DNA of 64,000 nt. Source: Chloroflexota bacterium (GTDB lineage Bacteria; Chloroflexota; Anaerolineae; Anaerolineales; Villigracilaceae). The stretch covers positions 186,001 through 250,000 of the forward strand of contig JACRBN010000026.1 of NCBI GenBank assembly GCA_016213105.1, in the 5' to 3' direction. This document shows positions 16,091-21,163 of the stretch, piece by piece. The notes beneath the pieces were generated by a model that was given only the letters and a program-made list of their open reading frames with translations, did not search any database and had not been told where the DNA came from. Each line of letters starts with the position of its first letter. Position 1 is the stretch's first letter. The translations under genes were made by a program, and so were the position numbers.

Positions 16091-17282
16091 TAGCCACCAG
16101 ACAGTTTGAGTAGAAAGGAGGTTGATCGGCGGGCAAAATCGAGTAAATTTGTTTTTGCGACAAAACGAATTACTTGGAGATGCACATGCCGACCAACCGC
16201 CTGTATCATACTTGGATGCGACAAATTTGTGAACTGCGACCTGGCGAACGAATTACTCGTCTGCGGAACTTTGTCTGGCTGATGGTTGGGATCTACCAAA
16301 GCCGATCGGTGCATCTGAGCAAAGTAGCCGGGAAGATTCCTGGTTTGGCAAACTTGGTTAGCATAACTCGGCGCTTGAGCCGCTTTCTGGACAATCCAGT
16401 CATCCGTGTACGAGAATGGTACGAACCGATCGCCCGTCAATGGTTGCAAGCCCAGTGGCAGAGTTTGAAAGAAATCCGTTTGATCGTAGATGGTACCAAG
16501 GTTGGCTTTGGACATCAGTTGCTCATGGTCAGTTTGGCTTATCGGAGACGATCTATTCCGATCGCTTGGACATGGGTGCGACAGGTACGTGGCCATAGCA
16601 GTGCACGCAAGCAATTGGCCTTATTGAATTATGTTCGGCTGCTTTTACCTGTCGGAGTACCCGTTTTTCTGGTCGGTGATTGTGAATTTGGCTCGGTGGA
16701 AGCCTTGAAATGGCTGGATCAGTGGCATTGGTTCTATGTTCTGCGCCAGAAATCCGATAGTGGTGTCTGGTTGCAGCATTCCACCGAATGGAAACCCTTT
16801 GCCAGTTTCGTTCAAAAGGCTGGTCAAAGTCGTTGGTTAGGTCACGGCTACTTGACGGCCAGCCACATCTACCCAACCAACCTCTTGGTACATTGGCAAT
16901 CTGGCGAAAAAGAGCCTTGGTGTTTGGCAACCAACCTGCCTGACCGTGATCTGACTTTACGATATTATCGGCGTAGGATGTGGATCGAAGAGATGTTTGG
17001 TGATCTGAAAAAACATGGCTTCGATTTGGAAAGCAGCATGTTGCATACATTTCTGCACTTGTCGCGTTTGACCTTGGCGGTTGCTTTTCTTTATGTCTGG
17101 CTCATTTCCTTTGGTGCTCGTACTATCCATTGGGGCTGGCGTCCTCTCGTAGACCGTTCTGATCGCCGCGACTTGAGCATCTTTCAAATCGGCTTCCGTT
17201 TCATCCAAAGGAGTTTGACCAATGCTTTACCTTTCTCGGTTCCGTTATGCGTTTATCTTTGATGTCAAACTGTCTGGTGACT
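16091..17282 (+). mobile_element. IS4-type insertion sequence with 11-bp target duplication
   Basis: About 1192 bp. The ends are inverted repeats: CTAGCCACCAGACAGTTTGA at 16090-16109 matches the complement of 17265-17284 at 19 of 20 positions. The target duplication AGAAAATTTTC flanks it (16080-16090 and 17283-17293). Because CTAG is a palindrome shared with the ends, the border could also be read as 16090-17284 with an 8-bp AAAATTTT duplication. The duplications are identical, so the insertion looks recent. It carries one transposase gene and sits between codons of an SLH protein gene. Confidence 0.92.
16186..17262 (+). CDS. IS4-family DDE transposase
   Basis: 358 residues from ATG 16186, which has GGAG upstream (TTG 16174 and ATG 16180 are alternatives). 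The DDE residues are visible: IVDGTK (first Asp), VGDCEFGS (second Asp), and YRRRMWIEEMFGDLKKHGF, which fits the Y-R-E-K signature around the catalytic Glu of IS4 elements. The length is complete and no frame break is seen, so the element may still be active. Its stop codon TGA overlaps an ATG (TGATG, 17260-17264) that opens the downstream SLH frame. Confidence 0.93.
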   Translation: MPTNRLYHTWMRQICELRPGERITRLRNFVWLMVGIYQSRSVHLSKVAGKIPGLANLVSITRRLSRFLDNPVIRVREWYEPIARQWLQAQWQSLKEIRLIVDGTKVGFGHQLLMVSLAYRRRSIPIAWTWVRQVRGHSSARKQLALLNYVRLLLPVGVPVFLVGDCEFGSVEALKWLDQWHWFYVLRQKSDSGVWLQHSTEWKPFASFVQKAGQSRWLGHGYLTASHIYPTNLLVHWQSGEKEPWCLATNLPDRDLTLRYYRRRMWIEEMFGDLKKHGFDLESSMLHTFLHLSRLTLAVAFLYVWLISFGARTIHWGWRPLVDRSDRRDLSIFQIGFRFIQRSLTNALPFSVPLCVYL

Positions 17283-18774: not shown

Positions 18775-19599
18775 TTAGATTGGCCCGATGTACTTCGTCC
18801 ACAGGTCGAGCAGGAGGAAGGTCAACATGCTGGCCGAAAGGGCGGCGGCCGCGGTGCGGACCAGGCCCCAGGGTTCGTTCCGCTTTTCGTCCAGCCAGTA
18901 GAAGATCGGGAAGCTGGTGATGAAGAAGCACGAGTAGGTGATCGAACCGATGGACAGCATGCGGTTCAGATCCTTGTAATAGAAGACCTCGGCCAGCGCA
19001 GGGTTGGCCATCGCGAAGGTCTCCATCCAGGCCCAGAAATAGGCCGCGGCGAAGATCGCAATGGGGAAGACCCAGGCCGAGGACTGACCCAGGCGCGAGG
19101 TGCGCAGGCGGCGCAGCACGACCATGGCGGTGGTGTGATAGGTCATGAAGTAGGCGTGGGTCAGGATGTACATCATGACCGGGGTGTGCTGCACGCCCGT
19201 GCCCACCAGCGTCGCGTCGAAGGTCCAGTGCAGGTTGGGGTAACTGTACACCATGCCCAACACGTCGAAGAAATACTCGCTGCCGTAATAATTGCCAATC
19301 AGGGAGAAAATGGCGATGTATACATTCGCCTTGAACCAATAGGTCTGGTACCAGGGCTTGCCCGCCCGGGCTTCCTTGTAGACCAGAAACGGGACGACCA
19401 GGAACGGTCCCGCCACCAGCAGGGAATAAATGATCGAGACGAAATCGCCCATCGTCTTCCCGTAGCCCAGCACGGTTGCCAGAAAGGTTTGGAAGATCCA
19501 GATTGGCGTGTAAATCAGGAAGAATTTTTCGCCCCAGGCTTTATCGGGATTTTCTGAAAACCAGCGGGCTTGGACGGGTGCGGCGGGGTTGGATTTCAT
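18775..19599 (-). CDS. Cycloeucalenol cycloisomerase-like membrane protein
   Basis: 274 residues with about six to seven membrane segments. From memory of the plant enzyme CPI1 (EC 5.5.1.9, which opens the cyclopropane ring of cycloeucalenol in sterol synthesis), the match runs end to end: WFSENPDKAWGEKFFLIYTP, then YWFKANVYI, GNYYGSEYFFDVLG, THAYFMTYH, LRRLR, ITSFPIFYWLDEK and the last residues LLDLWTKYIGPI. The length is also the same (about 280). No other sterol or hopanoid gene is in the window, so the substrate is unknown. The ATG has no Shine-Dalgarno but a TATACT box ends six bases upstream, so a leaderless mRNA is predicted. Confidence 0.75.
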   Translation of the reverse strand: MKSNPAAPVQARWFSENPDKAWGEKFFLIYTPIWIFQTFLATVLGYGKTMGDFVSIIYSLLVAGPFLVVPFLVYKEARAGKPWYQTYWFKANVYIAIFSLIGNYYGSEYFFDVLGMVYSYPNLHWTFDATLVGTGVQHTPVMMYILTHAYFMTYHTTAMVVLRRLRTSRLGQSSAWVFPIAIFAAAYFWAWMETFAMANPALAEVFYYKDLNRMLSIGSITYSCFFITSFPIFYWLDEKRNEPWGLVRTAAAALSASMLTFLLLDLWTKYIGPI

Positions 19600-19605
19600 G
19601 CTTCA

Positions 19606-19611
19606 AGTATA
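19606..19611 (-). promoter_or_regulatory. -10 box of a predicted leaderless promoter (cycloisomerase-like)
   Basis: TATACT on the minus strand followed by six bases and the ATG. The gap is too short for a ribosome binding site. Confidence 0.5.
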
Positions 19612-19690
19612 GCATGAGGTCTTCTATTCCCCCATATTCACGATAAAATTGACGCGCAAGCCGACTCCATTCGCCAGGGAAGCGCTCCGC

Positions 19691-21163
19691 ATGTTCAAAA
19701 AAATCCTGATTGCCAATCGCGGCGAGATTGCCGTCCGCATTATCCGCGCCTGCCGCGAGCTGGGTGTGAAGAGTGTGGCCGTCTACTCCGAGGCCGATAA
19801 AAATGCCCTGCACGTGCAGATGGCGGATGAGGCCGTCCTGTTGGGCGGAGCCGCGCCGCGCGAATCCTATTTGAATGCGGATAAGCTGATCCAGGCCGCC
19901 CTCGACACCCAGGCGGATGCGGTCCACCCGGGCTACGGCTTCCTCTCGGAAAACCCAACCTTCGCCGCTGCGGTTGATTTCGCTAACCTGACCTTTATCG
20001 GTCCCTCAGCGGATTCCATCCGCGCGATGGGCGACAAGGCCGAGTCGAAGATCCGCATGAAGGCGGCGGGCGTGCCGACTGTCCCTGGCTTCGAGGGACT
20101 TGAGAGTGGTGATGATTTCAGAAAAGCCGCGCAGGAGATCGGCTACCCCGTGCTGGTCAAGGCGGCGGCGGGCGGCGGGGGAAAAGGGATGCGCGTGGTC
20201 GAAGGCGAATCCGATTTGACGGAATCCATCGAAGGGGCGCGGCGCGAAGCGCTCCATGCCTTCGGCGACGAACGTCTGCTGATCGAGAAATATCTTCCCA
20301 ACGCGCATCACATCGAATTCCAGGTCTTCGGCGACCAACACGGAAATCTTGTCCATCTCTTCGAGCGCGAGTGTTCCGTGCAGCGGCGGCACCAGAAGAT
20401 AATAGAAGAGACGCCCTCGCCATTGCTGACGCCTGAGTTGCGCGCACAAATGGGTGAGGCGGCGGTCGCGGCGGCCAAAGCCGTGAATTATTTCAATGCG
20501 GGCACTGTCGAATTCATCGCCGACCCCGACACGTTGAAATTCTATTTTCTTGAAATGAACACAAGGCTGCAAGTCGAGCATCCCGTGACCGAGCTTGTCG
20601 CTGGACTCGACCTCGTCCAGTGGCAGCTGCGTATCGCGGCGGGCGAGCCGTTCCCCTTCACGCAAAGCGACTTCCACCAGCGCGGACACGCCATCGAGTG
20701 CCGCGTCTACGCCGAAGACCCCGCGGGCGGATTCCTGCCCAGCACGGGGCGGCTGCTGCAATTCATCGAACCGCGCGGGCCAGGCATCCGCGTGGACGCG
20801 GGCTTCCGCGCGGGCGACGAGGTGACGCACTTCTACGACCCGATGCTGGCCAAGCTGATCGTCCATGCCGAGAACCGCGAGGCGGCCACTCAGCGCATGC
20901 AGGCCGCGCTGCGCGAGTTCATCGTCCACGGTGTGACCACCAACATCGACTTCATGGGGGCCCTGCTGGCGCACGAAGATTTCAAGAACGGCCAGGTCAC
21001 CACACGCTGGGTCGAGACGAAGTTTGGCTGGCAGGCGGAGGAGCCGACGGTGGAGGCGCTGATTGCTGCGGCGGTGGCGGAGATGGGTCAAAAGTCGCAG
21101 GTCGAAGGTCAGAGCGCAGAGGCGTATAGTCCGTGGAAAGTGGCGTGTGGATTCAGGAATTAA
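19691..21163 (+). CDS. accC: Biotin carboxylase subunit of an acyl-CoA carboxylase
   Basis: 490 residues from the ATG at 19691; the frame is open further upstream but FKKILIANRGEIAVRIIRAC is the standard N-terminus. Visible blocks: HPGYGFLSE, the ATP-grasp loop AAAGGGGKGMR, LFERECSVQRRHQKIIEE, and EMNTRLQVEHPVTE. The protein carboxylates the biotin of the carrier encoded at 21660. The last ~25 residues (GQKSQVEGQSAEAYSPWK) look unlike any AccC and may be repeat-derived. The carboxyltransferase gene is not in the window. Neighbours (BCCP, MaoC, CitE-like) suggest a catabolic acyl-CoA carboxylase such as the methylcrotonyl- or propionyl-CoA type rather than fatty-acid synthesis. Confidence 0.93.
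   Translation: MFKKILIANRGEIAVRIIRACRELGVKSVAVYSEADKNALHVQMADEAVLLGGAAPRESYLNADKLIQAALDTQADAVHPGYGFLSENPTFAAAVDFANLTFIGPSADSIRAMGDKAESKIRMKAAGVPTVPGFEGLESGDDFRKAAQEIGYPVLVKAAAGGGGKGMRVVEGESDLTESIEGARREALHAFGDERLLIEKYLPNAHHIEFQVFGDQHGNLVHLFERECSVQRRHQKIIEETPSPLLTPELRAQMGEAAVAAAKAVNYFNAGTVEFIADPDTLKFYFLEMNTRLQVEHPVTELVAGLDLVQWQLRIAAGEPFPFTQSDFHQRGHAIECRVYAEDPAGGFLPSTGRLLQFIEPRGPGIRVDAGFRAGDEVTHFYDPMLAKLIVHAENREAATQRMQAALREFIVHGVTTNIDFMGALLAHEDFKNGQVTTRWVETKFGWQAEEPTVEALIAAAVAEMGQKSQVEGQSAEAYSPWKVACGFRN

Follow-up and report, generated by a model that had tools for sequence, protein, structure and literature searches.

A bacterial homologue of the plant cyclopropylsterol isomerase CPI1 in Chloroflexota, with relatives among sterol-degradation genes

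In the 64,000-nucleotide stretch of Chloroflexota DNA analysed here (the window), an ORF on the minus strand at 18775..19599 encodes a predicted membrane isomerase of the CPI1 family, 274 aa long. CPI1 is the cycloeucalenol cycloisomerase, or cyclopropylsterol isomerase (EC 5.5.1.9), of plants. The available text of PMC8172173 places a cyclopropylsterol isomerase CPI1 in Dictyostelium as well. The assignment draws on the ORF, homology, an AlphaFold model and a dN/dS comparison with the copy at locus L002, in a second genome of the same genus. The protein falls, by sequence comparison, in a bacterial group whose other members often lie in neighbourhoods of CYP51, 8,14-sterol-reductase and steroid-ring-cleavage genes. 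Sterol chemistry is likely, and we infer a cyclopropane substrate. That the protein is a bacterial CPI1-family isomerase of a sterol-catabolic lineage, opening the 9,19-cyclopropane of imported sterols, is a proposal to which we give an even chance. The wider picture is held a little more tentatively: bacteria would have a cyclopropylsterol isomerase family of their own in sterol breakdown, in which isomerase, CYP51 and 8,14-reductase would between them unblock C-9 in plant and algal cyclosterols, giving it a hydrogen and opening it to the 9,10-seco pathway; the plant CPI1 branch may derive from this family, and an orphan copy would have spread into a Chloroflexota genus.

The ORF listing and translation give a frame from 19599 to 18775, from ATG to stop, of 274 codons; a plus-strand reading of the same interval was rejected, there being a stop close to its end. 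Our query for Arabidopsis CPI1 was a provisional sequence of 281 aa and not a database copy, and BLASTP of the window protein against it found 107 identities in 270 positions (40%, E 1e-54), the alignment covering window residues 10-274, from RWFSENPDKAWGE to LLDLWTKYIGPI. A sequence-only reading of the window had taken the protein for a full-length bacterial homologue of CPI1, with the same length and the same last residues, and had named no strand. Homology over nearly the whole protein is borne out, and the alignment does end at a shared GPI, but the provisional CPI1 extends 19 residues beyond that point, and the two lengths are close and unequal. Does the homology depend on a provisional sequence? 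It is independent of it, because L074, a real eukaryotic relative, matches both proteins: the provisional CPI1 at 40% identity (E 1e-62), and the window protein at 34% over 223 aa (E 5e-25). L074 (G703:C121) is a CPI1 homologue on a eukaryotic contig within a Myxococcota assembly; next to it is a 1544-aa ORF in which IQ and CH domains exceed the Pfam cut-offs and an ASH match stays below threshold, and from our reading of those domains the contig is a eukaryotic contaminant. On these alignments, chance is excluded as the source of the similarity between the window protein and CPI1. The BLAST and HMM comparisons that had been proposed as a check found no better match to another family: up to E 1 the window protein has no match in Pfam or NCBIfam, and up to E 10 none among PDB sequences, by single or profile search.

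In both the window and L002 the CPI-like gene stands alone, divergent from a gene for an AccC-like biotin carboxylase (19649..21163, plus strand, assigned by Pfam, with the ORF taken from its first possible start). The spacer between the divergent genes (19600..19691) ends at the likely ATG of the carboxylase gene, and is partly recognisable in L002, where the shared stretch is CCATATTCACGATAAAATTGAC. The AccC-like neighbour is conserved context and not a sterol gene. The L002 copy is 86% identical to the window protein. Among the five genes compared between window and L002, dN/dS is 0.05-0.08 for the CPI-like gene and 0.05-0.11 for its neighbours AccC, MaoC and CitE; the MarR-like pair, at 0.24 and 50% identity, may be non-orthologous. 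The window CPI-like gene is under purifying selection. The CPI-like and MarR/ABC genes are close together in L002, and the window has extra DNA there; a transposase-like ORF, recognised by reading, lies between them at window positions 16174-17262.

What other sterol genes does the host have? As the sequence-only reading had remarked, none for sterols or hopanoids is seen across the 64 kb, judged by reading of the ORF lists and profile scans of two neighbours. In the whole window genome (5.4 Mb, 28 contigs), neither KshA nor CYP51 of the sterol-catabolism gene set was found, with no KshA_C match and a best P450 match of 27% identity, and a PF13243 search found no OSC/SHC. A genome-wide look for squalene and oxidosqualene cyclases, which had also been suggested, turned up a single PF13243 match, a 496-aa protein (L033, also L117:7610-9100, contig C2). 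It was rejected as a hopanoid or sterol cyclase: it has SPSAYDIAW, which we take to be a class-II diterpene cyclase motif, and reads as class-II diterpene-cyclase-like. Its gene sits between a histidine-kinase-like gene and an unnamed gene. At L114:6123-8190 (contig C1) a P450 gene, by our reading, comes after a photolyase-like gene and directly before one for a lycopene-cyclase-like membrane protein, a pair that probably belongs to carotenoid metabolism. The sister genome, G001, likewise has no KshA_C, CYP51 or OSC/SHC match, nor any PF13243 match.

One might suppose from such a genome, in which the OSC/SHC, KshA_C and CYP51 searches found no sterol gene, that the enzyme was repurposed after transfer, and that its substrate is a non-sterol cyclic isoprenoid of the Chloroflexota host, a carotenoid or a diterpenoid. 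The diterpene-cyclase-like gene and the P450 beside the lycopene-cyclase-like gene would suit such a role, as would the strong purifying selection within the genus. However, the P450 and the cyclase are on other contigs than the CPI-like gene, G001 has the gene without a PF13243 match, and the window copy falls inside a group linked to sterol genes and has that group's invariant residues. We consider this explanation improbable. The broader idea of a different cyclic lipid, raised when nothing but the sequence had been seen, is likewise not favoured: the neighbours and genomes of the relatives point to sterols, with CYP51, an apparent 8,14-sterol reductase, and HsaC-, HsaD- and KshA-like proteins.

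The gene is present in 2/2 genomes of the host genus, those of the window and of L002. An even sample of Chloroflexota has it in 1 of 400 genomes, which is the window genome, the sister genome being outside the sample. A scan of 84,980 species, one genome per species, with short peptide patterns that find close relatives only, gave at least 31 loci, a minimum figure. Loci at 53-60% identity are from Myxococcota, deltaproteobacterial and some unplaced assemblies, and the copies of Solimonas, Haliea and other Gammaproteobacteria are 35-41% identical to the window protein. Viral contigs yielded no confirmed relative with either the window protein or the provisional CPI1 as query, and plasmids none at E 1e-5. 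A CPI-like fragment in a Bathyarchaeota assembly (L031:4407-4577), 88% identical to a myxobacterial copy, is probably contamination.

Myxococcota loci, of which L010 is the most fully annotated, surround the gene with a TetR regulator, a P450, a KshA_C-type Rieske oxygenase, a BphC/HsaC-like extradiol dioxygenase, an HsaD-like hydrolase and oxidoreductases, by mechanical gene calls. Scores of the extradiol enzyme are 220 bits against HsaC and 299 against biphenyl-diol dioxygenase, both below the curated cut-offs, and that of the hydrolase is 194 bits against HsaD, again below the cut-off; for the Rieske protein there is in addition a weak match to SdmA, at 59 bits where the cut-off is 600. The P450s beside the gene at L010 and at L025, a Cellvibrionales locus, have CYP51 entries as their best PDB relatives (459 and 443 bits). 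For a further neighbour of about 200 aa, Pfam yields SnoaL matches below threshold and nothing else. A matching protein occurs at 10 loci; 7 of these were aligned (L004, L010 and L011, whose copies are shorter or broken, were left out), and all 7 have Y37, Y43, Y78, Y80, D133 and D136 in L018 numbering. These positions correspond to published pocket residues of 8,14-Bsr, in the available text of PMC13277303, and by these residues the neighbour is an apparent 8,14-sterol reductase. Among the 31 loci, several of them short, CYP51 is found in 14, the 8,14-reductase homologue in 9, an HsaC-like gene in 11 and a KshA-like gene in 9. In 23/31 loci one or more of these four genes lie near the CPI-like gene; none of them is seen at L002, L019, L020, L021, L027, L028, L031 and L032. 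A KshA-like gene is present at the Solimonas loci L022, L023, L024 and L026; DUF1302 proteins are near the gene at L019 and L022, and a P450 at L024.

The sterol-catabolism gene set of the relatives is also apparent in genome-wide counts. KshA_C, a domain to which other Rieske oxygenases match as well, occurs in 24 of the 28 searchable genomes with the gene (L018's genome is not in this count, and L017 and L008 are from the same genome), the misses being G001, G022, G024 and G025. With a minimum score of 280 bits, CYP51 occurs in 18/29 gene-bearing genomes, the window genome counted; it is missing from the window genome, G001, all six Solimonas genomes, G024, G025 and G028. The six Solimonas genomes thus have the gene and KshA_C without CYP51. 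An even sample of 329 Myxococcota genomes gave 27 matches, from which G475 (E 4e-4, internal stop) and G703 (the eukaryotic contig) were dropped, leaving 25 of 327. CYP51 is found in 24/25 of those with the gene versus 56/302 of those without it (p 2e-15), and an OSC of at least 500 bits in 15/25 versus 28/302 (p 7e-9); for KshA_C, common in Myxococcota anyway (128/329), the figures are 22/25 versus 106/302 (p 2e-7), and all three Fisher p values are too small, as shared ancestry is ignored, while many assemblies may be incomplete.

Do the carriers make cyclosterols of their own? A CPI used by bacteria in biosynthesis would be expected to accompany cycloartenol synthase. A TIGR03463 score of at least 500 bits was taken to mark an OSC, a level reached in 43 genomes, two of them above the curated cut-off of 851 bits. 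The motif at OSC residue 453 could be read in 40 of the 42 sequences fetched (that of G642 was not fetched, and those of G474 and G662 were not readable). V453 marks lanosterol producers and I453 cycloartenol producers, according to the available text of Wei and co-workers (PMC4919349). Where a Myxococcota genome of the sample combines the gene with an OSC, the residue is the lanosterol-type V453 in 15/15 cases, none of the eight Myxococcota with a cycloartenol-type I453 OSC has a CPI-like gene, and a further 17 V453-type genomes are without the gene. Because V453 is found in all 15 OSC-bearing carriers and the gene in none of the eight I453 genomes, the gene serves no home-made cycloartenol. 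The host cycloartenol-type cyclase of a plant-type cyclosterol biosynthesis was thus not found with the gene, and endogenous cyclosterol synthesis was rejected, the window genome having no OSC at all. Also rejected was the idea that in OSC-bearing Myxococcota the gene lies within a cluster for sterols, the sampled neighbours being mostly unrelated; in G641 an OSC is about 12 kb from the CPI-like gene.

Two readings survive: the enzyme acts on imported cyclosterols, in catabolism, or the sterol that it isomerises is some other 14-methyl compound of the CYP51 segment. The latter would have a CPI1-fold sterol double-bond isomerase act on lanosterol-type 14alpha-methyl/delta-8 sterols, for example by moving delta-8, with no cyclopropane opening, plants having recruited the same acid-base chemistry. 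The company of the gene in Myxococcota, with CYP51 (24/25) and lanosterol-type cyclases (15/15), would be expected of such an enzyme, as would its absence from the eight genomes with cycloartenol-type cyclases and a conserved site 108 unlike that of CPI1. Yet other enzymes for C-8 isomerisation are on record: an EBP homologue in the sterol producer Nannocystis, in the available text of PMC10152446, and, in that of PMC10202945, a Calothrix homologue for C-8 isomerisation. Mycobacteriales are also instructive. The available text of PMC13277303 gives them CYP51 and an active 8,14-Bsr, and has a Mycobacterium sp. reported to convert lanosterol to an 8(14)-unsaturated C19 steroid. Since none of the 31 loci of our close-relative scan is from Mycobacteriales, lanosterol breakdown seems not to need the gene. 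We regard double-bond isomerisation of lanosterol-type sterols as unlikely, though as the most serious of the alternatives, and favour the opening of imported cyclosterols.

How would the ring be opened, and to what end? In the chemistry of CPI1, the cyclopropane CH2 is protonated and H-8 is lost. If the bacterial enzyme acts in a CPI1-like manner, an acid would protonate C-19 of a 9beta,19-cyclopropane sterol, and the C-9 cation would then lose H-8 to give a delta-8 sterol whose C-19 methyl is normal. In the relatives, this delta-8 product would feed CYP51, whose 14alpha-demethylation gives delta-8,14; next would come the 8,14-reductase, leaving delta-8(14). Protonation at C-9, leaving delta-8(14), is what the discoverers of 8,14-Bsr propose in the available text of PMC13277303. 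A hydrogen would thereby return to C-9, where KshA requires one for 9alpha-hydroxylation and for the 9,10-seco pathway. While the cyclopropane is intact, C-9 is not hydroxylatable because it is quaternary, and a ring opener would have its place in a degradation operon because KshA needs the C-9 hydrogen. In the window genome the protein would be an orphan enzyme that opens the ring of cyclosterols taken up from plant or algal debris; cycloartenol, cycloeucalenol and 24-methylenecycloartanol are candidate substrates. Lee and colleagues, cited in PMC13277303, are said to have described microbial transformation of cycloartenol in 1991. The plant-type CYP51 is an obtusifoliol 14alpha-demethylase, and acts after CPI in plants. 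Obtusifoliol is what plant CPI makes, in the available text of PMC12667688.

Where does the window protein fall within the family? The tree has 50 sequences; of the 51 prepared, L009, near-identical to L008, was left out. L031 and L032 (both partial), L043 (G594) and fragments from G475, G554 and G729 were not among the prepared sequences, while L041, L042, L044 and L045 repeat rows already in the tree. Group I has 15 Myxococcota rows, 12 of them from OSC-bearing genomes. Group II (support 100/99) has 33 rows, mostly from KshA_C genomes, and takes in the window protein and L002, L018, the Myxococcota operons, the Gammaproteobacteria and four further Myxococcota. Group III (100/99) consists of the provisional CPI1 and L074. 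The plant CPI1 branch may have come from bacterial diversity, on a tree whose root is arbitrary and several of whose branches are long. The earlier thought of a possibly ancestral isomerase family is supported in part, in so far as the family is broad in bacteria, with CPI1 and L074 forming one branch among bacterial ones. Horizontal gain by the Chloroflexota genus, probably from a myxobacterium-like or proteobacterial sterol degrader, is favoured by the gene's rarity in the phylum together with the position of the window copy within group II.

Fifteen sites, all polar, Gly or Pro, are common to the window protein, the provisional CPI1, L074, at least 80% of group I and at least 85% of group II: P18, E24, P70, Y104, Y118, P140, Y154, R163, E193, T194, G218, Y222, P231, D237 and E238. 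Mutagenesis of CPI1 was reportedly published by Rahier and Karst in 2014. E108 is invariant in group II and is His in both eukaryotic rows, which are two sequences, one of them provisional; a group II segment at about 128-137 is absent from the provisional CPI1 and L074. These differences suggest that the substrate preference of group II may differ from that of CPI1.

The AlphaFold model of the window protein (mean pLDDT 85.2) is mostly helical. Its best structural alignment is to MvINS, a relative of Insig from bacteria (4xu6; Z 6.2, rmsd 3.8, 141 aligned), followed by the Scap/Insig complex 6m49 (Z 4.1, rmsd 5.2, 150 aligned), the others among the rows shown being below 4. Could the protein then be an Insig-like membrane protein that binds or senses sterols and has no isomerase activity? 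Both leading alignments are of that kind, but a Z near 6 may, by the tool's own note, reflect a common helical arrangement, Foldseek found no match to the model at E 0.001 or better, and the sequence homology is to an enzyme. The likeness to Insig and MvINS is a weak fold resemblance of a predicted model, with no sequence similarity detected, and we give a sensor of this sort very little credence. EBP/EXPERA folds are absent among the structural matches listed, which excludes nothing.

The isomerase that we propose shares with plant CPI1 its homology over nearly the whole length, a similar length and the residues E24, R163, E193-T194, Y222 and D237-E238, and some bacterial relatives adjoin CYP51, which in plants takes the CPI product. 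It differs in its bacterial host, in E108 (group II) in place of His, in the 128-137 segment, in a shorter C-terminus, and in the lack of any sign of cyclosterol synthesis in the carriers. It also resembles the bacterial CYP51 and 8,14-Bsr module for sterol 14-demethylation (PMC13277303), since some close relatives adjoin both genes; a difference is that no CYP51 was found in the window genome, and the available text of PMC13277303 mentions no CPI-type gene. No bacterial CPI family is described in the titles and opening abstract lines of the open-access literature searched, or named in the available parts of PMC10202945, PMC12004948, PMC10152446, PMC8172173, PMC5790920, PMC12667688 and PMC10714780. 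If our proposal is true, it names a step that could let bacteria degrade the cycloartenol-type sterols made by plants and many algae, in which the cyclopropane occupies the very position that the known degradation pathway has to attack. It would also add a module to bacterial sterol chemistry, offer enzymes for phytosterol bioconversion, and bear on the origin of the plant isomerase.

Two further observations concern the Myxococcota and other carriers. G557 has two CPI-like copies (L073 and L075), both near contig ends, one adjoining CYP51 and the other near an 8,14-reductase homologue. When the OSC loci were compared (L034, L049-L055, L057-L059, L079-L103 and L105-L109), R or P was found to replace the Gly before WPVSDC in 11 of the 15 OSCs of gene-bearing Myxococcota, and a non-Gly residue (R, Q or H) stands there in 3 of the 25 readable OSCs from genomes without the gene; the product of these non-Gly cyclases may be unusual.
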